In this document: piece after piece, positions 233 through 21,302 of the stretch
How positions within the stretch are numbered: the first letter of the stretch is position 1
Layout of the letters: each line of letters starts with the position of its first letter
DNA from: a virus
IMG/VR virus record: IMGVR_UViG_3300007960_000246
Span: 1 to 21,302 of that record
Direction: 5' to 3' (one strand)
Length of the DNA stretch: 21,302 nucleotides
Translations under genes and position numbers: made by a program
The notes under the pieces: generated by a model
Told to the model about the DNA's origin: nothing
Seen by the model: the letters and a program-made list of their open reading frames with translations, nothing else
The model's database searches: none

Positions 233-1303
233 ATGAGTGATATCAAACCGACCCATGTAGTATCTTTGAACGAAGCAGTAGACCTAATCCAACACACCGG
301 TACGGATGTCTCGTACTTGTTTTTAGGCGAAATGGGTATCGGCAAGTCGGCGATGCTCTACGAGCTTGCCAAGCGGGAGCCGGACTCTATCTGCGTATAC
401 GCGGATGCACCAACATTTGACACCGCAGACGTGACGGGCGTCCCGTTTGTGGAAGAGATCAATGGTATCAAAATCACACGGTTCGCACCGAACGCGCTGC
501 TTAATATCCACCACGGCAAGCCAGTGAACTTCATGATCGACGAGATCGCCAAGGCCCCGCGCACGGTGCAGAACTCGTTCATGCGGCTCTTCCATGAGAA
601 GAAGATAGGGGAGTTCACCCTGCCCAAGGGAAGCCGGGTATTCGCTACATCTAATCTCGCTGCGGAAGGCTTAGGGGACCACGTACAGGCGCAGTTCCGC
701 AATCGTGGTTCCGTGTGCGAGATCCGAAAGCCGACCGCCGATGAGTGGGTTATCTGGGCTATGGATAACAATATCCACCCTGTTATCGTTGCTTGGGTGA
801 AGCGGTTCCCCCGGTGCATGGCGTCGTTCCGCGACGGTGACGGCAATCCATACATCAACTACCCGAATAAGCCCAGTAACGCGTTCGTGTCGGGGCGTAG
901 TTTGCACCGCGCGAGTGACATAATGTGGCGCAAAACAGATCTGTCGCCAAACGCCCTACGTGTTGCAATCGCGGGTTGCGTGGGATTGTCCGCAGGTAAT
1001 GACATCATGTCATTCGCCGATACGTTCGACCGGCTCCCGTCATGGGATGCAATCATTGCTGCCCCCGGGTCCGCGCAGGTTCCTGACTACAAAGACTTCG
1101 CAGCGAACTTCGTGTCGGTGTTCAGCGCAATCCAATCGGTGACTGCGAAAACCATGGTCCCGTGGATGACATACTGCAACCGTCTACCAAAGGAATATCA
1201 AGGGTTGTTTGCCATGAATGTTCTATCATCTCCCGCCCGCGCTGCCGCGCTTAGTTGCCGCCCGTTTGTGAAGTGGGCAACCGACAATCAATGGCTTTTC
1301 TAG
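233..1303 (+). CDS. MoxR-type AAA+ ATPase
   Basis: This 356-residue AAA+ ATPase has a Walker A motif at about residues 32-39 (GEMGIGKS), a Walker B at 100-104 (FMIDE) and a sensor 1 motif ATSN at 138-141, followed by an Arg-rich QAQFRNRG segment that could supply the arginine finger. This order and the compact domain match the MoxR branch, whose members couple ATP hydrolysis to remodelling or activation of partner proteins, typically with VWA proteins. The next gene is such a VWA protein, nine bases downstream. ATG 233 was chosen because AAGGAG at 221-226 sits six bases upstream; the in-frame ATG at 194 overlaps the previous gene and has no comparable site. The substrate is unknown. Confidence 0.9.
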   Translation: MSDIKPTHVVSLNEAVDLIQHTGTDVSYLFLGEMGIGKSAMLYELAKREPDSICVYADAPTFDTADVTGVPFVEEINGIKITRFAPNALLNIHHGKPVNFMIDEIAKAPRTVQNSFMRLFHEKKIGEFTLPKGSRVFATSNLAAEGLGDHVQAQFRNRGSVCEIRKPTADEWVIWAMDNNIHPVIVAWVKRFPRCMASFRDGDGNPYINYPNKPSNAFVSGRSLHRASDIMWRKTDLSPNALRVAIAGCVGLSAGNDIMSFADTFDRLPSWDAIIAAPGSAQVPDYKDFAANFVSVFSAIQSVTAKTMVPWMTYCNRLPKEYQGLFAMNVLSSPARAAALSCRPFVKWATDNQWLF

Positions 1304-1312
1304 GAGGCAGTT

Positions 1313-2470
1313 ATGTTAACGACAGAAGAACGGATGCAGAAGTTAACGCTGTCGCTTCTTACCCATCAAAAGTACCGCAGCTTAGGTGGTGTCATCATGA
1401 TGGGGGAAGCATCACTATTCGACGAAGGCCCAGTATCAACAGCCTATACCGACGGGTTCAACGTGCGGTATTGCAAGAAGTTCATCGACGGGCTATCTGA
1501 TCCGGAGGCCCGATTCGTCATCCTGCATGAGACGATGCACAAGGCGCTGCTACATCTAACTACGTGGCAGTGGATGTGGAAAGAGGATCCGAAACTGGCG
1601 AACCTTGCCTGCGACTACGTCATCAACCTCCTTCTATACAAGTCCGACGCAGATGATGGGTTCATCGAGATGCCCGCGCAGGGTGCGTTGGATGAGCAGT
1701 ATGAGGGGATGGACGCAGGGGAGGTATTCCGTAAGCTCAAACAAGAAGGGAAGGGGGGAGGTGAGCCCCCCGGTGGGTTCGACGAGCATGGATGGGAACA
1801 AGCGCAGCAGCGTAGCACGGAGGAACAGAAGGAACTATCCGAGCAGGTACAAAGCGCGCTGCAATCGGGGACTATCTTGGCGGGCAGCAAAGCGGGAGAA
1901 CTTGACCGGGCGGTGCGAGAGATACTTACCCCAAAGGTCGACTGGTCCGAGGCGCTGCGGGACTTCATCACTTCCCACTGCGCAGGCAAAGACCTCGCCG
2001 TGTGGCGCAGACCTAACCGGCGGTTGCTACATAACAACATCTACCTGCCATCGTATGTCAGCGAGCGTACTGGGCGTATCGGCATAGGGGTGGATACATC
2101 TGGGTCGGTGAGCGGGAAAATTCTGACCCGCTTCCTGTCTGAAGTTGCAGCGATTGCTACCCTGCTCAAGCCTGAAGTTACCGACTTGATGTATTGGGAT
2201 ACGCGGGTTGCAGCACACGAGAAGTACTCGGATGGGATGTACGAGATGTTGACGCAATCCACTAAACCAAAAGGAGGAGGTGGTACGCGCCCATCATGTG
2301 TCACGCAGTATCTATCAGAGAAAGCCCTGAGATTTGAGTGCATGGTGATGTTGTCGGATGGTGAGGTCGGCAACGATTGGGGAGGAGCGTGGCCCTGCCC
2401 GGTGTTGTGGTGCCTCACAAACAAACAGATTAACGCAGGGGTTGGACGTACGATCTACATAGGAGACTAA
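1313..2470 (+). CDS. VWA-like protein with N-terminal metallopeptidase-like domain (DUF2201 type)
   Basis: This 385-residue protein has two parts. The N-terminal part carries HETMH (residues 72-76) followed by ACDYVIN near 99-105, the HExxH plus downstream Asp arrangement of putative metallopeptidase domains found with VWA proteins. A Gly/Glu/Gln-rich linker spans about 140-185. The C-terminal part has a MIDAS-type DTSGS motif (261-265), GGGGT (321-325) and LSDG (347-350), together a VWA-like metal-dependent binding fold. AGGAGG at 1302-1307 overlaps the upstream stop and sits five bases before ATG. Known MoxR plus VWA pairs act as chaperone or metal-insertion machines; whether this one cleaves protein is not known. 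All HExxH and MIDAS residues look intact. Confidence 0.87.
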   Translation: MLTTEERMQKLTLSLLTHQKYRSLGGVIMMGEASLFDEGPVSTAYTDGFNVRYCKKFIDGLSDPEARFVILHETMHKALLHLTTWQWMWKEDPKLANLACDYVINLLLYKSDADDGFIEMPAQGALDEQYEGMDAGEVFRKLKQEGKGGGEPPGGFDEHGWEQAQQRSTEEQKELSEQVQSALQSGTILAGSKAGELDRAVREILTPKVDWSEALRDFITSHCAGKDLAVWRRPNRRLLHNNIYLPSYVSERTGRIGIGVDTSGSVSGKILTRFLSEVAAIATLLKPEVTDLMYWDTRVAAHEKYSDGMYEMLTQSTKPKGGGGTRPSCVTQYLSEKALRFECMVMLSDGEVGNDWGGAWPCPVLWCLTNKQINAGVGRTIYIGD

Positions 2471-2471
2471 C

Positions 2472-2756
2472 ATGACGAGTACGACGAATAAGGCAGGTAA
2501 CAAAGTGATTCTTCATCTCGGGTATTACCGGTATGTGCTAGATCCCAAGGTGGCTACCGAGTTGTTCCTGGCCCTTACGAAGGAGACGGTCGAGCGGTTC
2601 GATGACAAGTGGAACTCCGAGATGCGCAAACAAGAGCCACGGGTACTCCCGACAGACTCTACAGAAATTAAGATAACGCTTCTTCCGGAAGCAGATTACG
2701 CAATGGGGAAGTTGTTGTACGCAGCAGAGCAATCTAACAAAAGCGAAGGAGAGTAG
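2472..2756 (+). CDS. Small hypothetical protein in the MoxR/VWA cluster
   Basis: A 94-residue soluble protein not recognised as a named family. It begins one base after the VWA gene stop, with AGGAG at 2461-2465 six bases upstream of ATG. The first 45 residues look like a strand followed by a helix (KVILHLGYYRYVLDP, then a Lys/Glu-rich helix), and the C-terminal 30 residues are again helical. No cysteines or membrane segments are present. Its tight position between the VWA gene and the next large gene suggests it is translated with, and may work with, the MoxR/VWA system, but that is inference from position only. Confidence 0.75.
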   Translation: MTSTTNKAGNKVILHLGYYRYVLDPKVATELFLALTKETVERFDDKWNSEMRKQEPRVLPTDSTEIKITLLPEADYAMGKLLYAAEQSNKSEGE

Positions 2757-2758
2757 TC

Positions 2759-3610
2759 ATGGGTGTTGTCGATAACAGCATGTTGGTAAACCTTTCTATG
2801 TCGGTGTGGTCCGGTCGTAAGCTCGACCGGCAGGTATCCGAAGAGGTAGACGCCGCCAAGAGCACCCGCACCCGGGCGGGGAACTACAACAAGAATCTGT
2901 TTGCGGGGGTCGTTGAGTTGGAGGCAGTGATCTCGGTATCGAAGGCGATTCGATTCTGGCATACCCGGCACACATTGCCTTGGTCGGATGGCGGCGAACG
3001 GTTGTTGCCGTTGCCAAACTTCTTAGCCTACAAGAAGGAGCTTGCTGAATGGGAACAGAAGTTCAAGGAGGTGGTTGACTTGTTCTGCGCCAAGTATTCG
3101 ACGTTGATCGCAGCGCAAGCTTTCCAGTTGGGGGCCTTGTTCAACCGAGATGAGTATCCGGACCCCAACCTCATCACGAACAAGTTTGCCTTACACTGCA
3201 CATTCTCCCCTGTGCCAGGAGTAGGGGACTGGCGGATTCAGACAGACGATACGTTGCGTCAAGAGTTGGAGGCCCAGTATGAGAAGGCGTATGCGAATCG
3301 TCTCAGCAACGTGACGAATGACTTGTGGCAGCGGTTGCATACATGCCTTACTCACATGAGTGAGAAGCTGGTCGAGCGTGGCGAAGGCAAGCGTAAAGTC
3401 ATCCGCGACTCCTTGCTTGGCAACGCTGTGGAGCTTTGCGGGTTGTTGTCTCGGCTCAATGTATTGAACGACCCGGCGTTGGAAATTGCCCGCAAGCAAT
3501 TGGAATCGGTATTGTCTGGGTTGGACGTGCAAGACTTGCGCAAGAGTGACGGGGCGCGTAAGGAGATTAAGACGCAAGTGGACGATATATTGAAGCGGTT
3601 CAATTTCTAA
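2759..3610 (+). CDS. Hypothetical helical protein, MoxR/VWA-associated (DUF3150-like?)
   Basis: A 283-residue, mostly helical, charged protein with no signal peptide or membrane span. It starts two bases after the previous stop, with AAGGAG at 2746-2751 seven bases before ATG. The N-terminal 20 residues (NLSMSVWSGRKLDRQ region) are followed by a middle section with many Lys/Glu and aromatic residues, and a C-terminal Leu-rich helical part. In phages and plasmids, MoxR and VWA genes are often followed by a protein of about this size annotated DUF3150. The position and character fit, but I cannot confirm that family by eye. No enzymatic motif is visible. It may be a substrate or scaffold of the upstream ATPase pair. 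Confidence 0.75.
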   Translation: MGVVDNSMLVNLSMSVWSGRKLDRQVSEEVDAAKSTRTRAGNYNKNLFAGVVELEAVISVSKAIRFWHTRHTLPWSDGGERLLPLPNFLAYKKELAEWEQKFKEVVDLFCAKYSTLIAAQAFQLGALFNRDEYPDPNLITNKFALHCTFSPVPGVGDWRIQTDDTLRQELEAQYEKAYANRLSNVTNDLWQRLHTCLTHMSEKLVERGEGKRKVIRDSLLGNAVELCGLLSRLNVLNDPALEIARKQLESVLSGLDVQDLRKSDGARKEIKTQVDDILKRFNF

Positions 3611-3612
3611 CT

Positions 3613-3903
3613 ATGGCATCAACCCCGGAAAGTAAAGTCAAGGCGCGGGTCAAGGCGCTACTAGACGAGTACGGGGCGTACCATTTCCCTCCGAACATGG
3701 GGGGTTACGGGCGCTCCGGCATTCCAGACATCATTGCCTGCCTTAAGGGAAGATTCATTGCCATCGAATGCAAGGCGGGGGGTAGTAAGCCTACCGCACT
3801 GCAACTAAGAGAGCTTGACAGGATTAGAGCGAGAGGAGGAGTGGCCCTTGTGGTTAACGAAGAAGGTGTCGAAGCGCTACGGTCGGTATTGTCTTCGTTG
3901 TAA
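3613..3903 (+). CDS. VRR-NUC domain nuclease
   Basis: A 96-residue single-domain protein of the PD-(D/E)XK superfamily. The motif GIPDIIAC (about residues 36-43) supplies the catalytic Asp, and FIAIECKAG (about 48-56) supplies the Glu-x-Lys pair. TALQLRELDRIRARGG and ALVV complete the usual VRR-NUC order, where a Gln follows the core. Stand-alone phage VRR-NUC proteins are thought to act as structure-specific nucleases in replication or recombination. The gene begins two bases after the upstream stop with no good SD site, so translation is probably coupled. The length is normal for the stand-alone domain. Confidence 0.88.
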   Translation: MASTPESKVKARVKALLDEYGAYHFPPNMGGYGRSGIPDIIACLKGRFIAIECKAGGSKPTALQLRELDRIRARGGVALVVNEEGVEALRSVLSSL

Positions 3904-7060: not shown

Positions 7061-7334
7061 GGATTTACGGAGGTTGCTGGAAGACGCTGAGAAAGAAGGG
7101 TGGAAATTTAAGGCTAACCGCAACCACATCAAAGGCAAACACATCGGTGGAGCGACAATCACCATGAGCCGTACTCCGAGCGACTATAGAGCGGTGCGAA
7201 ACATAAAGCGGGACTTCAAGTACGCGTTAAGCAAAGGGCGAAGCAGTGGACATCATCACGCTGGACATGGAGACGTACTACGACCAACAGTACTCACTAA
7301 GCAAACTGACGACAGAAGAGTACATCCGAAGTGA
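7044..7334 (+). CDS. HicA-like dsRBD-fold protein
   Basis: A 96-residue frame whose first 60 residues have the HicA pattern: LRRLLEDAEKEGWKF helix and strand, NHIKGKHIGGATITMS with the potential catalytic His near residue 28, then TPSDYRAVRNIKRDF. Classical HicA toxins are small mRNA-cleaving or RNA-binding proteins paired with HicB; no HicB is seen nearby, so a stand-alone phage RNA-binding role is possible. The last 89 bases overlap the polymerase gene in another frame, and the C-terminal 30 residues (His/Gly/Arg-rich) are outside the HicA domain. Start ATG 7044 overlaps the previous gene and has only a weak ribosome site. Confidence 0.68.
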   Translation: MITTNKDLRRLLEDAEKEGWKFKANRNHIKGKHIGGATITMSRTPSDYRAVRNIKRDFKYALSKGRSSGHHHAGHGDVLRPTVLTKQTDDRRVHPK

Positions 7335-9975
7335 TCTATTCGAGGTCATCGGTGTAGCCGCGCAGGTTAACGACGGAAAGCCGGAATGGTTCTCCGGCAC
7401 GCACGAAGAAGTAGGGAACTGGTGCCGACAATTTGACTGGGCAAACGCGATGCTTGTGGCGCATAACGCCATGTTCGACGCCGCGATCCTAAGTTGGCGG
7501 TTCGATACCCGCCCGAAAGTTATTGCTGACACCTTGAGCATGTCGCGGGCGGTGCATGGGGTGGAGGTCGGGTTAAGCCTGGAGAAGCTCGCGGGGTACT
7601 ACGGGTTAGGAATCAAAGGCACTGAAGTCATCAACGCGCGAAGCAAACGCAGGTTAGATTTTTCCCCCGACGAGCTTGCCCGGTACGCAGAGTATTGCCG
7701 CAATGACGTGGCTTTGACGTATGGCTTGTTCCAGATCCTCATCGACATCTACCCTCGGGACGAGTTGCGGCTTATCGACCAGACCCTCAAGATGTTCACC
7801 GAGCCGGTGCTGGAGTTGGATGCGTTTCTGTTGGAAAAACACCTAAGCGACGTGCAGGCACGCAAAGAAGAGTTGCTAGCGAATCTGGGGGGTGATCCGG
7901 AAAGTGTCCGCAAGCGGATTATGAGTAACCCGCAGTTCGCTGAACTCCTGCAAGAGCATGGGGTTATCCCGCCGACTAAGATCAGTCCGACAACCGGCAA
8001 GACGACGTACGCCTTTGCCAAGACCGATGAAGGGATGAAGGAGCTTCTTGCGCACCCTAACCCGGAAGTACAAGCCCTCGTCTCCGCGCGGCTTGGAGTG
8101 AAGTCGACATTGGAAGAGACGCGCACGCAGCGGTTTCTGGGTATCGCGCAGCGGGGCAATCTACCTGTGCCACTGAAGTACTACGGTGCGCCGACGGCTC
8201 GTTGGGCAGGGTTGGATAAGGTAAACCTCCAAAATCTTCCGTCCCGGGGCGCAGATGCGGGCGCACTGAAGCACGCGATTAAACCCCCGCCCGGGTACGT
8301 CATCGTAGACGCGGATTCCTCCCAGATCGAAGCACGGATACTGGCTTGGTTGTCAGAGCAGGAGGATTTGGTTGAAGCGTTTCGCACAGGGCAAGACGTT
8401 TACAAAATCATGGCGTCCGCAATCTACAGGAAGCCCGCCGAGGAGATCAGTTCGTCTGAACGCTTCATAGGAAAGTCGACGCTACTCGGTAGCGGCTACG
8501 GCATGGGGGCTAAGAAGTTTCAGCTTTTCATGCAGATGGCTAACGTCGAGATGTCGTTTGATGAGGCCAAGCACATTATCGACACTTACCGGGAAACCTA
8601 CCCTCGCGTCCCTGCCCTGTGGGCACAGGGGGATGCAGCGCTACGTGCCATGGTCGATAGCCGGTCGGCACCATATGGGCGGGAGGGGGTGATGCAGATC
8701 AACGGTCTTCTCGGAGTGCTAGGCCCCAATGGCATCCCGCGCAGGTACCACGAGTTGCGACGAACACGAGACGCCAAAGGCAACGAGGCAATCGTATATA
8801 CTTCCCGCACAGGAGTGACCGGTATATGGGGAGGGAAATTCACGGAAAACTGTCTGGCCGCAGGCACCGAGGTACTTACTTCTAGGGGATGGGTCCCCAT
8901 TGAGGCTGTCCGCCTTGAAGATAAAGTCCACGACGGGGTAGAGTGGGTTTCTCATGGCGGTAGTGTATTCAAATCTGTCCAGTATTGTGTTATTGTCGAC
9001 GGTGTGTATATGACCCCCGACCACGAGGTGTTAACCGATGACGGATGGAAAAAAGCGGAAGCTCTCCCTGAACCTTACCGGCCAGACCTTTGGGGCATTG
9101 ACTGCTATCAATCGGGAGAAAAGCGACGGGAAGCATTGGCTGTGGAAGTTTCGTTGCCAATGCGGGACATTTGTCATACGCAAGGGGAAGGAAGTAGCAC
9201 GGTACGCTCGGAGGGGATGGACGCCGAATTGCGGATGCCTGACCAAATCTCTACAAGCGAAGCCCCACATTACTCACGGCATGAGTCGGCACCCCGCGTT
9301 CGCGGTATGGAGGTCTATGGTGGACCGGTGTCGGCTACCCTCACATCGGGCGTGGAAGAATTACGGGGGGCGGGGAATAAAGGTATGCGAGCGTTGGGAG
9401 AAGTCGTTTCAGAATTTTTGGGACGACATGGGGCCGACGTATCAAAACGGGTTGGATCTGGATCGGCGCGACAACAACAAAGGGTATTCTCCGGAGAACT
9501 GTCGCTGGGTATCTCGTCGGGTGAATTCGCGCAACAAACGCAATTCTCTGAGAGTGGACATCATGGAACTAAGCAAGACAACGGGGATCGCTCGGTCCAC
9601 TCTATACTACCGTCTCGCCCGCGACCTACTGCTAACTGCACCGGTCAGGAAGCGCAAGTCTATCCCGTCTTCGACATCATTAACTCCGGCCCCCGGCATC
9701 GGTTTGTAGTGCGTGGTAAACTTGGCCCCTTCGTTGTCCATAACTGTTGCCAGTATTTGGCCCGCGTCGTCATCGGACAGCAGATGTTGAGGATCGCTAA
9801 ACGCTACCGTGTGGTGTTAACTGTGCACGATGCAATTGCGTGTATCGCCCCCGAAGAGGAAGCACAAGAAGCCCAAGCCTACGTCGAATCTTGCATGCGG
9901 TGGGTGCCGGAGTGGGCACCGGGGTTGCCGTTGAATTGCGAATCGGGTATGGGGCGAAGCTACGGAGAATGTTAA
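7246..9975 (+). CDS. Family A DNA polymerase, intein-containing precursor
   Basis: A 909-residue precursor that would leave 611 residues after removal of a 298-residue intein. The N-terminal 3'-5' exonuclease shows D7-M-E9, HNAMFD (N74, D78) and YCRND (Y150, D154). The polymerase domain has motif A around D357 (DADSSQIEARI), the O-helix R406-x3-K410-x7-Y418-G and motif C VHDA (H861, D862). No 5' nuclease is present, as usual for phage enzymes. GTG 7246 is the start because the exonuclease Asp is residue 7 and AAAGGG at 7233-7238 is seven bases upstream; a start at the next in-frame ATG would lose that Asp. Leu414 occupies the position of E. coli Phe762, and Ala863 replaces the Glu of HDE. It is the replicative polymerase, probably with the downstream PrimPol-helicase. 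Confidence 0.93.
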   Translation: MDIITLDMETYYDQQYSLSKLTTEEYIRSDLFEVIGVAAQVNDGKPEWFSGTHEEVGNWCRQFDWANAMLVAHNAMFDAAILSWRFDTRPKVIADTLSMSRAVHGVEVGLSLEKLAGYYGLGIKGTEVINARSKRRLDFSPDELARYAEYCRNDVALTYGLFQILIDIYPRDELRLIDQTLKMFTEPVLELDAFLLEKHLSDVQARKEELLANLGGDPESVRKRIMSNPQFAELLQEHGVIPPTKISPTTGKTTYAFAKTDEGMKELLAHPNPEVQALVSARLGVKSTLEETRTQRFLGIAQRGNLPVPLKYYGAPTARWAGLDKVNLQNLPSRGADAGALKHAIKPPPGYVIVDADSSQIEARILAWLSEQEDLVEAFRTGQDVYKIMASAIYRKPAEEISSSERFIGKSTLLGSGYGMGAKKFQLFMQMANVEMSFDEAKHIIDTYRETYPRVPALWAQGDAALRAMVDSRSAPYGREGVMQINGLLGVLGPNGIPRRYHELRRTRDAKGNEAIVYTSRTGVTGIWGGKFTENCLAAGTEVLTSRGWVPIEAVRLEDKVHDGVEWVSHGGSVFKSVQYCVIVDGVYMTPDHEVLTDDGWKKAEALPEPYRPDLWGIDCYQSGEKRREALAVEVSLPMRDICHTQGEGSSTVRSEGMDAELRMPDQISTSEAPHYSRHESAPRVRGMEVYGGPVSATLTSGVEELRGAGNKGMRALGEVVSEFLGRHGADVSKRVGSGSARQQQRVFSGELSLGISSGEFAQQTQFSESGHHGTKQDNGDRSVHSILPSRPRPTANCTGQEAQVYPVFDIINSGPRHRFVVRGKLGPFVVHNCCQYLARVVIGQQMLRIAKRYRVVLTVHDAIACIAPEEEAQEAQAYVESCMRWVPEWAPGLPLNCESGMGRSYGEC
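9025..9030 (+). promoter_or_regulatory. Shine-Dalgarno site (GAGGTG) for the nested endonuclease gene
   Basis: GAGGTG lies seven bases before ATG 9038. In the polymerase frame these six bases are the codons for E594 and V595, the two residues after the conserved block B His593. The ribosome site therefore sits inside the most conserved part of the intein. It decides the start of the nested gene. Confidence 0.65.
9038..9709 (+). CDS. HNH-type homing endonuclease-like protein nested in the intein (+1 frame)
   Basis: A 223-residue protein read in the +1 frame relative to the polymerase and lying wholly inside the intein. Residues about 12-68 (LNLTGQTFGALT, then CQC at 40-42 and CGC at 65-67) form the N-terminal zinc-finger module common in phage HNH/AP2 endonucleases. 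Residues 79-163 carry THGM, YGGRGIKVC (109-117) and LDRRDNNKGYSPENCRW (141-157), the catalytic-core signature of this family. Residues 171-195 (DIMELSKTTGIARSTLYYRL) look like a NUMOD-type helix-turn-helix for DNA recognition. Expected role: cut intein-less polymerase alleles to spread the intein. GAGGTG gives an independent translation start, and the stop falls 35 bases before the intein end. Confidence 0.88.
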   Translation: MTDGKKRKLSLNLTGQTFGALTAINREKSDGKHWLWKFRCQCGTFVIRKGKEVARYARRGWTPNCGCLTKSLQAKPHITHGMSRHPAFAVWRSMVDRCRLPSHRAWKNYGGRGIKVCERWEKSFQNFWDDMGPTYQNGLDLDRRDNNKGYSPENCRWVSRRVNSRNKRNSLRVDIMELSKTTGIARSTLYYRLARDLLLTAPVRKRKSIPSSTSLTPAPGIGL

Positions 9976-10634
9976 TGATTAAGTGGTCGTACAGTAGCCT
10001 GAATCTATTCCAGCAATGCCCGAAGAAGTATTACCATCTTCGTATTGCCAGGGATGCCTTTGACCCCCCTTCCCCGCAGATTCGGTACGGGTTGGAAGTG
10101 CATAAAGCTGCTGAAGACTACGTCCGGGACGGAGTGCCGCTCTCTCCGGCGTTGGGCTATATGCAGGAGGCGCTTGACCGGTTGCGGGTGCTGCCGGGGG
10201 AGATAATGTGCGAGCAGAAGTTGGGGCTTACCAAGGAGCTTGAGCCGTGCAAGTTTTACGACAAAAACGTATGGTGGCGGGGCATCGCCGACTTGCTCGT
10301 TGTTGACGGGGATACAGCAAAAGTCCTAGACTACAAGAGTGGGAAGAGCCGATACGCTGACACCAAGCAGCTTGAAATTCTCTCGCTTGCCGTGTTCAAG
10401 CACCATCCCGAAGTGCAGACGATCAAAGCTGCCTTGTTGTTTGTTGTCGATACTGGCTTGGTTAAGGCGCAGTACAAGCGCGAAGAATCCGAAACGCTGT
10501 GGAAGCGGTGGCTGGAGGAAGCTACGCGACTTGAAGCAGCACATGCGGAGAATGTGTGGAACCCCCGGCAGAACTTTACCTGCCGTCGGTGGTGCCCCGT
10601 CACGAACTGTAAGTTTAATGGGAGGGAAGTGTGA
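9975..10634 (+). CDS. PD-(D/E)XK nuclease, RecB/Cas4-like with probable iron-sulfur cluster
   Basis: A 219-residue protein of the RecB/Cas4/AddB nuclease type. Seen in order: SYSSLNLFQQCPKKYY (C15), GLEVHKAAEDY (39-49, His43), GIADLLVV (D106), VLDYKSGK (D119, K121) and KQLEILSLAV (Q132). C203, C207 and C212 near the end, with C15, match the four-cysteine 4Fe-4S arrangement of Cas4 and AddB. It likely trims DNA ends in recombination or replication. ATG 9975 is the start: GGAG at 9964-9967 is seven bases before it, and the start overlaps the polymerase TAA. The longer in-frame extension to 9840 only shadows the polymerase. No CRISPR array or other cas gene is present. Confidence 0.85.
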   Translation: MIKWSYSSLNLFQQCPKKYYHLRIARDAFDPPSPQIRYGLEVHKAAEDYVRDGVPLSPALGYMQEALDRLRVLPGEIMCEQKLGLTKELEPCKFYDKNVWWRGIADLLVVDGDTAKVLDYKSGKSRYADTKQLEILSLAVFKHHPEVQTIKAALLFVVDTGLVKAQYKREESETLWKRWLEEATRLEAAHAENVWNPRQNFTCRRWCPVTNCKFNGREV

Positions 10635-17294: not shown

Positions 17295-20200
17295 CTACAT
17301 CCCCGCGAACTTGCGAAGCTGTGGCAGGCTAGCCCGGGCAAACATTTCTACTTCCTGTTTTTCCAATTCCGCAATCTGCGCTCGCTTTTCCTCAGCAGAT
17401 ACACCGGAGGAAAGCACCGCTTGCCGTGCCTTGCGGAACATCGCGATCCATTTATCCATCTTGCCAGTGAACCCCAACTCCGCCAGCGCGTAGAGTTCTT
17501 TGTTCTCTTCCAAGTAGTCCTGCAGCTTGTCGGGAGTTTTCCGCATTATGTCGTTGACCGTGCGGTTCACCGTATCGATTTTATCCCGCAGATCGTAATA
17601 GTCTTGACGCAGCCCCGACCCCTCACGACCGCTGAAGAAAGCACGCAGTTGGGGGTTGTCGCTCAGGCGAGACTCCGGTACTTCGACCTTGGAAGCAGAT
17701 CCGTACAAGGCGCTACCGTAGTGCAGCAACGTACCGCCGAACATCCCGAGCGTACCTCGGATGAAGTAGTCGAGCTTGATGGGGGAAATATTCGTCGCCG
17801 CTCCGATTGCCTTAGCCAACTCCGACGTCGTTTCCGTGTACTGCCGGAACGATTCTAGGCTTTCCTGCCCTTTACCAACGATGGGGCGACCCGAGAAGAA
17901 CGAGTAGTTGACGAACAGTTCAAGAATCGGCTTCGCCGCTTGAGGGATTGGTGCGGAAGGAGCCACGGCGTTTACAACCCCATCCCGCATTGCACGAAGC
18001 AGTTTGCGGTTGTCCATCTCGGTCGCCGTGCCTTCGGTCGCGAGGTAGTTGTAGAAAAGTTCAGGCAACCCCTTAGCCAGCAACCCGGCAGCATCCATAG
18101 GCACCGGGATCTTGAGGTTCTGTCCGATATCTACCCCCGTCAACTCCTTCATCTTTTCCCGACTACCGGGCAGCAACCAGCCCCGCATCTGCTCATTAGG
18201 CGACATCCGTTGGTATTCTTCGTCATCGGAAACGAACATCGCATACAGAAGGGAGAAGGCTCCTACCTTAGCAGCGAGAGAATAGAACTGCCGTAGCGCC
18301 GTTTGCCGATCTTTCGCAGTGATACCTTCCTTCGTCATGGCGCGATACGTGACGTTCATACCTTGCACATAGGCGTTAAAGAAGGGGATGCTTTGCCGCA
18401 GGATAAACGAAAGTTTGCTCGCCCCTCGGTTCTGAAAGTTGATGATCTCAATGGCGCGGAACAACGCAAGGGCCTCGTCGCCGTTCGTCTCTTTCATCGT
18501 TTGCTCATACACGGCTTTCCGTTGCGCCATATCTGACGCATGGGAAAGCTGGTCCAACTTCCCTACAAGGTAGTTAATTCCTTTGCGAACCCCGGGGTTC
18601 ATCGGCGCAAGCTGCGCGGCGGCGCGGCTCTTCTCCCCAAACTTCCCGGAGAAGATGTAATCAACCTGACCCTGCAGTCCGTATTTGTTCAGTTCTTGGG
18701 TAACAGGGTCTTCGCGTAGGGCACCGACAAAGTTCCCAAGTACCGACGCCCCTACACGATAGGGGTTGTTGACCCCGCTATACAACAGCACACGTTGGGA
18801 GTCTTGGAAAAGCTGGTTAACAGTAAACCCCGGCATCAGTGTCGTGCCTTTGCGCACGAGTTGGGTTGCTTTGCTGAGAGCTTCTAGTATGGGGGTGGTC
18901 TCTTCAATGATCGGCATAAACGCGGTCGCTGCGAGCGGGTCGTCCAGTTCGTAGAACGTCTCCTTCCCGTTCTTGTAGACCTTAATGACTTTGTTCTTGT
19001 CCACCCCCGGGGCTGTCGCGGAACCGACTTGTTTGCCGTTGAACGCAGCAGAGCCCAGTACATCCGCAACCTTGACGGCTGCATGGTTCTTGATCGCGCT
19101 CGTGGAGAGCCAGAAGGCGAGGCTCTGCATATTCTGAAACACCGATCCAATCGGACGCTGATCTATATCTCCACCCAGAAGCTCCTTTACCCGCCCCGTG
19201 GCTTGCAGGGTGGAGGAGAAGAACGCTTTCGCGGAGGACTTCGTTTCGTACCCGTGGTTTGCGTCGTCCAATATCCGGTGCCATGGCACGTAGTCAGCAG
19301 CTTGCTTCCACTCCGCAACATCCTGTGCACTGAACCTACCCGCCGCGAGGTTTGCGTCAAGCAGCGCGTTCTTGTATTCCGTCCAAGCGTCGAGAGCAGC
19401 GCGCAACTGCGGGCCGTACAGGCGTTTTGCTTCCCGAGCGGCGTCGAAGGTGGTCCTCGGAATTTTGTACATCGCTTTTTGTGCCGCAGATAGACTGTTA
19501 AACCGCTCCACGATAGTGTAGTTGTCGAACATTGCATTGGCTGCGGCGAACCGTTGCTCAATGGTTCCGGATTGAAGGGAGTTTGCAATCCCCATAAGAG
19601 AGTCAAGTACCTCTTTCATGGACGTGCCTTGCGTGACCTTGAACGTCTGAATGCCGCGCCCCCCGCCAAGCGTCTGAAGCCGTATCGGCCCAGCCATGAG
19701 AGACGTGGCTGCGATATCCCCCGCACGAGAGGCAAATGCCATATGAAAGACAGACTCCCATTGCCCCGCTTCAGAAAGAATTCGCTTCGCTACATACATG
19801 TTGTCGACAACGCTGACCGCGAACTTCTTGGCGAAGTTCTTAAACGCGTTAAGGTCAGTGAAGGTTTTAAGCAGCCGTTCCATGAACGGGCGGTCGCCAT
19901 CGCGGGTAACCTGCTCAATACGTTGCTGGTTAAGCCGGTCAAGATTGGGATCGCCGGTGGAGGCAACTTGCGCCCGAACCTCTTGAACCTGTAGTGCAGT
20001 ACCGGCACGCCCAGCGAGTGTTGCAAGTTCTTTCGGAGAGACATCAAGGAGCTTATCCCCAACCCGCAACACTTCAGCAAGAGCGGTATCCGCACGGGCA
20101 GGCAAACCAAGAAAGTTACGAATAGCCTCAACAAACCGCGTCCACAGGGACTTACCCTTGTACGGTATCGTCTCCAACCACTGCTGCATATCCCGGTTTG

Positions 20201-21302
20201 TTAGCGCCCAAGTCAATACCTCGTCCACGTCTTCTAGTGCGTTTACCCTTCTCTCAAAAACCCGCCGTTCAAAGGGGGTAAGGCTCGACTTGTCGGCGTC
20301 AACACGAGCATTGTAATGGCGTATGATAGCCTTAGTAACCGCGTAAAGATCCCGCACGTCTTGTGCTAGAGGGCTATTTTCGGACACCCTCCAACTCCCC
20401 AGCCGAGTTGCCGACAGCGTGGCAACATGGACCAACTCATGAAGAAGGGTTTCATACGAAGTCCCAACTCTTCCAGTGCGATCCGCTCCGTTGAGCCAAA
20501 TAGTCTTGGTTCCGACGCCCTTGGTGTAATTGGACGCTACAATCCCTCGCGCTCGGTTAAGCTCTAGGGGCTCTAGAGGCCCCCAATCCCCCCCGTGCGC
20601 GATCTTCAAATCGAACTTCAGCCCCGCCTCTTGCAGCCCCTCAAGCTGCGCAGCTACACGCGACGCAATTAGACGGTAGTCAGCATCGGGGGCGTTTTTT
20701 GCAAGCCATCGCGCAGCTTGAATCGGATCCTTGCCTTCTATCGCGGATTGAACGGTGCGAGCCTCCGTCGGGGAGGGATCCCCAAACTTTTTAGCCACAT
20801 CCTCTTCGGCTTTTTTATCCTTCTGGTACTTGGCTACTCTGGCCCTGAATATCTTTTCAGCTTCCCGAACAAGCTCGGGCTCACGAATACCGTAGTCAGT
20901 CAGCGTGTCCTGAACATTGACGAAATAATCTTCTACATCCGCATTCTGGTCGACCGCCGCATCTGCGTTTGATACAGCAATATTTTTGGTTTGTACGGCT
21001 TTTTCAACATACTGGTCATAAAGACGTTCCGCTTCCCGTATCGCGGAGTCGGGTATTTCAATAGTCCGCAGAAGGTTAGCTACGTCTTTCCGGTACGCTT
21101 GAATTGGGTCTGGGTCGAGTCGCGCAACTTCGGGGCGGCCGTCTGGGCCGAAGACTGCGTCGTAAGCATTGCTATGCGCTAAAGCCCGCAGTTCAGCTTG
21201 TACTTCTAGTGCAACGGGCTGCAGTTCCTCTCTTGCAGGGCGCCCCTCAGTAACTCCGCGAGATACATCCACGTCGGGCCGTCCAGTTGCTGCAGGACGG
21301 GG
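17295..21302 (-). CDS. Giant polyvalent phage protein with zincin-like HELVH motif (N-terminus cut)
   Basis: On the - strand the frame is open to the window edge, so the true start is outside; the first in-window start candidate is GTG at 21270-21272, giving 1,325 residues. Numbered from there, residues 276-286 (LLHELVHVATL) hold an HExxH zincin motif after a TIWLNG strand. LTWALTNRDMQQWLET, then SLWTRFVEAIRNFLGLP follow at about 355-395. The C-terminal half (TLMPGFTVNQLFQDSQRVLL; RQSIPFFNAYVQGMNVTYRA; AFSLLYAMFV) resembles the large polyvalent protein-associated LPD38-type region. Such proteins are packaged or injected with phage DNA. Opposite orientation to replication genes suggests a late or virion gene. 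Whether HELVH is active is unknown. Confidence 0.8.
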   Translation of the reverse strand, partial: PRPAATGRPDVDVSRGVTEGRPAREELQPVALEVQAELRALAHSNAYDAVFGPDGRPEVARLDPDPIQAYRKDVANLLRTIEIPDSAIREAERLYDQYVEKAVQTKNIAVSNADAAVDQNADVEDYFVNVQDTLTDYGIREPELVREAEKIFRARVAKYQKDKKAEEDVAKKFGDPSPTEARTVQSAIEGKDPIQAARWLAKNAPDADYRLIASRVAAQLEGLQEAGLKFDLKIAHGGDWGPLEPLELNRARGIVASNYTKGVGTKTIWLNGADRTGRVGTSYETLLHELVHVATLSATRLGSWRVSENSPLAQDVRDLYAVTKAIIRHYNARVDADKSSLTPFERRVFERRVNALEDVDEVLTWALTNRDMQQWLETIPYKGKSLWTRFVEAIRNFLGLPARADTALAEVLRVGDKLLDVSPKELATLAGRAGTALQVQEVRAQVASTGDPNLDRLNQQRIEQVTRDGDRPFMERLLKTFTDLNAFKNFAKKFAVSVVDNMYVAKRILSEAGQWESVFHMAFASRAGDIAATSLMAGPIRLQTLGGGRGIQTFKVTQGTSMKEVLDSLMGIANSLQSGTIEQRFAAANAMFDNYTIVERFNSLSAAQKAMYKIPRTTFDAAREAKRLYGPQLRAALDAWTEYKNALLDANLAAGRFSAQDVAEWKQAADYVPWHRILDDANHGYETKSSAKAFFSSTLQATGRVKELLGGDIDQRPIGSVFQNMQSLAFWLSTSAIKNHAAVKVADVLGSAAFNGKQVGSATAPGVDKNKVIKVYKNGKETFYELDDPLAATAFMPIIEETTPILEALSKATQLVRKGTTLMPGFTVNQLFQDSQRVLLYSGVNNPYRVGASVLGNFVGALREDPVTQELNKYGLQGQVDYIFSGKFGEKSRAAAQLAPMNPGVRKGINYLVGKLDQLSHASDMAQRKAVYEQTMKETNGDEALALFRAIEIINFQNRGASKLSFILRQSIPFFNAYVQGMNVTYRAMTKEGITAKDRQTALRQFYSLAAKVGAFSLLYAMFVSDDEEYQRMSPNEQMRGWLLPGSREKMKELTGVDIGQNLKIPVPMDAAGLLAKGLPELFYNYLATEGTATEMDNRKLLRAMRDGVVNAVAPSAPIPQAAKPILELFVNYSFFSGRPIVGKGQESLESFRQYTETTSELAKAIGAATNISPIKLDYFIRGTLGMFGGTLLHYGSALYGSASKVEVPESRLSDNPQLRAFFSGREGSGLRQDYYDLRDKIDTVNRTVNDIMRKTPDKLQDYLEENKELYALAELGFTGKMDKWIAMFRKARQAVLSSGVSAEEKRAQIAELEKQEVEMFARASLPQLRKFAGM

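Follow-up and report, generated by a model that had tools for sequence, protein, structure and literature searches.

What purpose does a MoxR-type AAA+ ATPase serve in a phage genome, when it is encoded next to a protein carrying both a HExxH motif and a von Willebrand factor A (VWA) domain? The question is raised by IMG/VR virus record IMGVR_UViG_3300007960_000246 (positions 1 to 21,302; this whole 21,302-base stretch is hereafter called the window), in which four plus-strand genes are packed at 233-3610. A first-pass annotation had described them as four tightly spaced genes with strong Shine-Dalgarno (SD) sites. This was confirmed: the intergenic gaps are 9, 1 and 2 bases, and the SD sites, assigned by eye, are AGGAG, AGGAGG, AGGAG and AGGAG, spaced 6, 5, 6 and 7 nt from the respective starts. 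We showed that the conserved unit consists of three of these genes, which encode the ATPase (AAA), the VWA protein and a protein related to DUF3150. We propose, with a rough probability of 0.45, that their products form one ATP-driven VWA/MIDAS (MIDAS, metal ion-dependent adhesion site) remodelling machine serving the replication or recombination of mobile DNA. The four genes are as follows.

233-1303, plus strand: MoxR-like AAA+ ATPase, 356 amino acids (aa); phrog_1297; counterpart of gp24 of phage N4
1313-2470, plus strand: metallopeptidase-like (HExxH) and VWA protein, 385 aa; DUF2201_N and DUF2201; phrog_1314; counterpart of N4 gp25
2472-2756, plus strand: accessory protein, 94 aa; predicted order beta-beta-alpha-beta-beta-beta-alpha; family of 18 sequences
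2759-3610, plus strand: DUF3150-related protein, 283 aa; mostly helical in an AlphaFold2 (AF2) model; proposed adaptor or scaffold

The ATPase gene starts with the ATG at 233 (the mechanically called open reading frame, ORF, opens at TTG 194). The occurrence of relatives with the same genes in viral contigs, together with mostly synonymous substitutions, demonstrates that the four-gene stretch is not a product of chance. Over 16 gene comparisons the non-synonymous proportion (pN) was 0.16-0.51 and the synonymous one (pS) 0.68-0.86, the synonymous distance (dS) being often saturated.

The identification of a MoxR-type ATPase and of a VWA protein with HExxH and MIDAS motifs, made in the first-pass annotation, was upheld. 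The ATPase belongs to phrog_1297 (“ATPase”, E 1.7e-45 in PHROG) and scores 21.3 bits against Pfam AAA_5 (cut-off 22); its best solved relatives, in a profile search of PDB sequences, are the AAA modules of midasin (E 1.9e-21). The VWA protein passes the cut-offs of two Pfam models, DUF2201_N (PF13203, putative metallopeptidase; 92.7 bits vs 23.2) and DUF2201 (PF09967, VWA-like; 39.7 bits vs 26.4), and its metallopeptidase region (residues 53-84) weakly matches the PDB sequence of MJ1213 (E 0.044-0.047). Its group, phrog_1314, carries the label “HNH endonuclease”, which is repeated across many phage records. This label is wrong for the family, whose members are metallopeptidase-VWA proteins.

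Conservation was examined in alignments of the window protein with representatives of less than 90% identity (80 of 101 VWA, 72 of 82 AAA and 77 of 83 DUF3150-like sequences), from which sequences of named records or plasmids, fragments and, for brevity, some others removed by hand were excluded. There was no loss of Walker or MIDAS residues. In all 72 ATPases the Walker A (G32, G35, G37, K38) and Walker B (D103, E104) residues are invariant, as are N141, R158 and R222, which we take, from general AAA+ anatomy, to be sensor 1, the arginine finger and sensor 2. In all 80 VWA proteins the same holds for H72, E73, H76, H81 and D101 (the HExxH motif begins at residue 72 and D101 is probably the third metal ligand) and for D261, S263, S265, T325 and D349 of the MIDAS. 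Such invariance of catalytic and MIDAS residues argues that the unit works like MoxR/midasin-type machines.

The 283-aa protein, one of two partners that had been regarded as unknown, turned out to be related to DUF3150. Its score against Pfam DUF3150 (PF11348) is 13 bits (16.6 and 15.9 for its relatives in loci L002 and L003), which is below the curated cut-off of 24.9, and for this reason we file it as DUF3150-related and not as a member of PF11348. Profile-profile comparison (hhalign) firmly linked the family to plasmid proteins of Burkholderiales/Rhodovastum (E 4.7e-60) and, at E 9.6e-30, to a protein that is encoded on a Manganitrophus plasmid and itself passes the DUF3150 cut-off (35.3 bits). 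The alignment with four classic, pCAR1-type DUF3150 proteins is collinear and weaker (E 2.6e-5, probability 75%; 0.5% for an unrelated control), and a plain hmmsearch of these four with the environmental profile gave a weak match (best E 0.012 at Z 20000). The AF2 model is mostly helical (pLDDT 92.1, pTM 0.85), and 12 of 15 counted positions are invariant in 77/77 sequences; D23 and D238 are invariant acidic residues of the protein. No PDB fold matched the model at E 0.001; the best VIA-align hit (ClyA, Z 10.3, root-mean-square deviation 4.3, 119 residues aligned) is under the noise level for helical bundles, and the single chain found by a PDB sequence search with the profile (“stem_mimetic_01”, E 6.5e-5) is uninformative. 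On the Manganitrophus plasmid (L173, 3860-7133) the DUF3150 gene is accompanied by a classic AAA ATPase, DUF1257 and DUF2997, with no VWA gene in the stretch read.

That these three genes belong together follows from the loci of their environmental relatives, of which the best 80 of 308 were used for the 283-aa family and the best 80 of at least 591 for the VWA family (the two sets overlap in some contigs and are not independent). Among the 80 DUF3150-like loci an AAA gene was present in 63 and a VWA gene in 72, and where 4 kb was available on both sides each was found in 34/34. The 80 VWA loci contained AAA in 75 cases and a DUF3150-like gene in 67 (38/38 and 31/38, respectively, of those with flanks). 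The order in the 129 loci with all three genes is AAA-VWA-DUF3150 (109), DUF3150-AAA-VWA (18) or AAA-DUF3150-VWA (2). Distance-matrix correlations within the trio, calculated for 31 loci thinned from 56 with permutation figures uncorrected for shared ancestry, were 0.84 (AAA-VWA), 0.79 (AAA-DUF3150) and 0.74 (VWA-DUF3150). Those with neighbouring genes were 0.41 (DUF3150-Pol), 0.36 (DUF3150-VRR-NUC), 0.47 (AAA-Pol), 0.40 (AAA-VRR) and 0.58 (VWA-VRR), the two neighbours giving 0.52 with each other (VRR-Pol). The members of the trio thus track each other better than they track their neighbours, with the exception of the VWA-Pol pair discussed below.

The claim of a four-gene unit therefore stands for the AAA, VWA and 283-aa genes and fails for the 94-aa gene, whose family was found in only 20 of the 129 loci, the slot being elsewhere occupied by other small genes or by none. 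A role for it as a core subunit was rejected on these grounds; the gene is accessory and lies outside the conserved core. The AF2 model of its product is a small alpha/beta fold (pLDDT 88.1, pTM 0.66) with no Foldseek match in the PDB at E 0.001 and a best VIA-align Z of 4.0 (PstA, in PII/CutA-like rows). Neither method supported a ubiquitin-like fold of the kind used by midasin partners. The 94-aa profile, applied to the ORFs of 17 loci, finds one gene of the Schitoviridae phage FSL SP-058 (E 6.4e-8; hhalign probability 95.9%), which directly precedes a DNA helicase gene and is present in 19 phage records; unlike in the window, this distant relative lies away from the AAA-VWA pair. A scan of genome contigs with A5 gave 57 stretches fitting a pattern and 0 relatives. 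In 38 loci the unit includes a protein of ~180 aa (e.g. L083, 7148-7693), mostly between VWA and DUF3150, i.e. in the slot of the 94-aa gene, in which neither sequence nor a PHROG scan revealed an endonuclease. An HNH-like gene between AAA and VWA in L003 was considered as a part of the unit and rejected, as it appears by eye to be a homing insertion.

The surroundings of the unit were recorded for the 129 three-gene loci over 5 kb upstream and 6 kb downstream, where present, with some labels assigned by eye. The corresponding genes of the window are listed below.

3613-3903, plus strand: VRR-NUC/Hjc-like nuclease; a common neighbour of the unit, not claimed as a subunit
7246-9975, plus strand: intein-containing family A DNA polymerase; a neighbour which puts the unit in the replication arm
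9840-10634, plus strand: PD-(D/E)XK exonuclease (phrog_69, 1.5e-21; PDDEXK_1, 61.6 bits); a replication or recombination neighbour, of uncertain start, whose ORF overlaps the polymerase gene

The VRR-NUC gene starts 2 bases after the 283-aa gene, so the operon-like packing extends past 3610, and the wider plus-strand region also encodes a DUF3310 protein, a SNF2 helicase and a DUF927 primase/helicase-like protein. In the loci, VRR-NUC (93, downstream) was the most frequent neighbour; DUF3310 (77), PolA (61, downstream), RecB-like exonuclease (42) and SNF2 helicase (13) were also recorded. Of the 47 loci in which the upstream sequence exceeded 5 kb, 15 showed TerL there, on the strand opposite to the unit. 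Because of these nuclease, polymerase and exonuclease neighbours, and of TerL being on the other strand, the unit is placed in the replication arm and not in the structural arm. This bears out the earlier assignment to a replication-side region and, as to the purpose left open there, favours replication or recombination. Two further families, neither present in the window nor confidently matched in Pfam or PHROG, are possible additional parts of the unit: one of ~304 aa (89/129 loci, mostly immediately upstream of AAA, e.g. L003, 4252-5226) and one of ~286 aa (62/129, immediately downstream of DUF3150, e.g. L003, 9570-10472).

The same set of genes is carried by plasmids. Among 72,556 plasmid records, the VWA protein has relatives in 58 and the DUF3150-like protein of Simplicispira in 44. 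All six Burkholderiales/Rhodovastum plasmid loci read (L170, L171, L174-L177; beta- or alphaproteobacterial) have AAA, DUF3150-like and VWA genes, recognised with profiles derived solely from environmental phages, in five cases contiguously (in L170 the AAA gene lies several genes upstream). Their three proteins are homologous to those of the window (DUF3150 as given above; VWA, hhalign E 4.1e-61; AAA by profile), but the order is AAA-DUF3150-VWA, whereas that of the phages is mostly AAA-VWA-DUF3150, and no 94-aa gene was detected in them. Plasmid pSYSA of Synechocystis carries AAA-VWA; the stretch read contains no DUF3150-like gene.

A more divergent version was found on four of four further conjugative plasmids read (pCAR1, IncC, Citrobacter MOBH and pMAQU02), each with AAA, DUF3150 and a VWA protein containing HExxH and the first MIDAS motif. 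In pCAR1 the order is AAA (with CbbQ_C), DUF3150 and VWA (with HECSH), and the three plasmids scanned for Pfam DUF3150 gave 307.6 (pCAR1), 305.2 and 154.4 bits. A search of plasmids with the pCAR1 DUF3150 matched 1139 records, 983 of them typed as conjugative. All four plasmids encode ssb, recT/bet and a lambda-type exonuclease ~1-16 kb from the set. On those of IncC, Citrobacter and Marinobacter the set is interspersed with these genes or adjacent to them; in pCAR1 ssb and recT are ~10 kb and the exonuclease ~16 kb downstream. According to the pCAR1 transcriptome, ORF100-109 form one transcribed unit, genes within ORF100-103 are conserved in R478, Rts1, SXT and R391, and a link to conjugative transfer has been suggested (PMC2642839). 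By our matching of the text of that paper to the annotated record, ORF101-103 correspond to the AAA, DUF3150 and VWA genes. The pCAR1 operon thus shares with the window a MoxR-type AAA+ protein, DUF3150, a VWA protein with an N-terminal HExxH and a region with DNA recombination genes; it differs in having an AAA branch with CbbQ_C, a CobT-like VWA branch and a remotely related DUF3150 protein.

Among 50,697 phage records, relatives of AAA were present in 300, of VWA in 708 and, by tblastn, of the DUF3150-like protein in 4. When nine whole phage records were searched with the DUF3150-like profile it was found in two, a Planktothrix phage (which also has AAA and VWA) and Tunturi_3 (with neither AAA nor VWA in the stretch read); Rollin lacks a DUF3150-like gene in its whole record and has neither AAA nor VWA in the stretch read. 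The cultured Rhizobium phage RHph_TM27A contains AAA, VWA, PolA, exonuclease, VRR-NUC and SNF2 genes in one run, without DUF3150. The best described counterparts of the pair are gp24 and gp25 of N4 and other Schitoviridae, listed as an AAA ATPase and a vWFA protein of unknown function (PMC2784036). Both belong to the 14 genes that make up the core of 25 N4-like phages, again as genes of unknown function (PMC4193335), and pfam13203 was reported on the gp25 homologue of P_ort11 (PMC6992544). Small Vibrio N4-like phages are described as lacking gp24/gp25, there called rIIA/rIIB-like (PMC9525291); this numbering conflicts with the placement of rIIA/rIIB at gp33/gp34 (PMC6992544). As in the window, the Schitoviridae pair is phrog_1297 and phrog_1314 (phage XC38 matches both), in the same order and in a replication-side setting; unlike the window, it has no DUF3150 in the two whole genomes searched (L006, L179).

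How might such a machine operate? In midasin and RavA-ViaA, AAA rings with MIDAS-bearing partners pull on target complexes. Like the window, these systems and CbbQ-CbbO pair an AAA protein of the MoxR/midasin clade with a partner that bears a MIDAS; their targets are different and, to our knowledge, none of them has a DUF3150 subunit. By analogy, the AAA+ subunit is predicted to form a ring of the MoxR/midasin kind, on which the VWA protein would dock, gripping the target through its metal-binding MIDAS, while ATP hydrolysis would pull or remodel the target, which the HExxH domain may nick or hold. The DUF3150 protein would be a dedicated third subunit; since it accompanies two divergent AAA/HExxH-VWA branches, it is most simply seen as an adaptor or scaffold bringing the target. 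Complexes of recombination or replication are suggested by the neighbours in common (annealing proteins, SSB, exonucleases, polymerase, VRR-NUC). Rather than the virion, the most likely target would be a nucleoprotein complex engaged in replicating or recombining the element's own DNA (polymerase, exonuclease, annealing or SSB proteins).

Several observations weigh against this proposal. Seven of the 38 flanked VWA loci lack a DUF3150-like gene, with none anywhere in those seven contigs (possibly fragments), and six of the seven named phages with AAA and VWA have no detectable DUF3150 in their whole records. DUF3150 is therefore not always required. The tree test is not clean, as the VWA-Pol correlation reached 0.74 (partial 0.65). 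In their AAA as well as their VWA proteins, the plasmid forms located near ssb/recT are of another branch (comparing the VWA family with the pCAR1 VWA by hhalign gave E 0.089). In the rV5-like phage MaxTheCat the AAA and VWA genes are apart and on opposite strands, and in the jumbo phage pEa_SNUABM_12 the pair is immediately preceded by four genes that are labelled as structural. The VWA protein of a Variovorax plasmid (L174, 6965-8251) has lost the HE of HExxH and kept the MIDAS, which means that peptidase action is not universal; judging from sequence, such activity is plausible in phages and not essential for all members. Finally, neighbourhood is not function.

The structural genes of pEa_SNUABM_12 would fit a chaperone of virion assembly with peptidolytic processing of structural proteins. 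This role has been proposed for the MoxR-vWA(metallopeptidase) pairs encoded by jumbo phages of group 2.2, in a paper which also cites an archaeal virus whose tail assembly requires a MoxR-vWA system (PMC7824862). These pairs share with the window the AAA+ and metallopeptidase-VWA proteins; they differ in that no DUF3150 was found in the whole genome of pEa_SNUABM_12 (whose membership of the group is assumed). We consider such a role unlikely for the set described here, which occurs also on plasmids, i.e. elements that make no virion, and whose phage neighbours are genes of DNA metabolism. A secretion apparatus could be the plasmid counterpart of the virion, and type IV secretion system genes are indeed present within ~3 kb of the set in two of the six Burkholderiales/Rhodovastum plasmids.

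An action against the host is likewise rather improbable. According to this hypothesis the AAA-VWA proteins dismantle or cleave a complex of host defence or host replication, either at an early stage of infection or once a plasmid has entered, which would suit genes common to phages and conjugative plasmids (both enter as foreign DNA), their position with early-type genes and the HExxH invariant in all 80 aligned phage proteins. However, high conservation across distant phages, including core status in the 25 N4-like genomes (PMC4193335), is not the rapid turnover expected of such factors, the neighbours are replication genes and not a defence-island mix, and none of the four unit proteins matches PADLOC (2023 version) at E 1. 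The latter result also bears on the suggestion, made in the first-pass annotation, of a conflict system. The ternary systems of this kind, among MoxR AAA proteins with MIDAS-bearing partners, are defined by VMAP or iSTAND and by a vWA protein with variable effector domains (PMC7159879); the third component here is DUF3150-related and a Pfam scan revealed no VMAP/iSTAND component or effector domain, so this candidate was rejected. That the unit assists a metal chelatase or a cofactor enzyme, in the manner of CobS/CobT, CbbQ/CbbO or NorQ/NorD, is very improbable: models of CbbQ_C and CobT recognise the plasmid forms and the AAA proteins of two named phages weakly match phrog_249 (“porphyrin biosynthesis”), but the third gene encodes DUF3150, and in the loci read none of the annotated or scanned genes next to the set codes for a chelatase or metabolic enzyme. 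The ORFs scanned in the window, a 21 kb fragment, include none for a CobN catalytic subunit.

Some other features of the window deserve mention. The intein of the polymerase (~298 aa, 8851-9744, plus strand) is overlain in another frame by an ORF for a 223-aa HNH endonuclease (9038-9709, plus strand; phrog_374, 1.1e-55), an arrangement already on record, since phage APSE-1 is annotated with a similar overlap (P45 polymerase, P46 HNH). Positions 1-125 lie inside a low-complexity repeat coding for a tail rich in Asn, Gly, Asp and Tyr, where the contig may have broken. The matches of the 1325-aa protein encoded at 17295-21272 (minus strand) include, among others, a Planktothrix phage protein, with the relationship covering 58% of the length of the window protein; this relative is named “large polyvalent protein” in one record; Planktothrix phage Pra-JY27 has a relative of it, plus AAA, DUF3150 and VWA genes.

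The AAA/VWA pair and the pCAR1 operon are already in print; the listings of a literature search (CC-licensed PMC papers) showed no description of the phage three-gene set or of its tie to plasmids. The label of phrog_1314 used in many records has been shown to be wrong for this family. Going further than our proposal for the three-gene unit, it is possible, if doubtful, that phages and large conjugative elements have in common one ancient AAA+/zincin-VWA/DUF3150 backbone device, which would remodel recombination or replication complexes on incoming mobile DNA, perhaps as a site-specific metalloprotease. If true, this would be a function without a described counterpart in phage or plasmid biology. 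The analysis ties N4 gp24/gp25 to a third partner and to an SXT/IncC-type backbone operon, and so to the shared setting of mobile DNA replication and recombination; this tie to N4 and to conjugative elements opens the way to direct genetic tests in laboratory strains.

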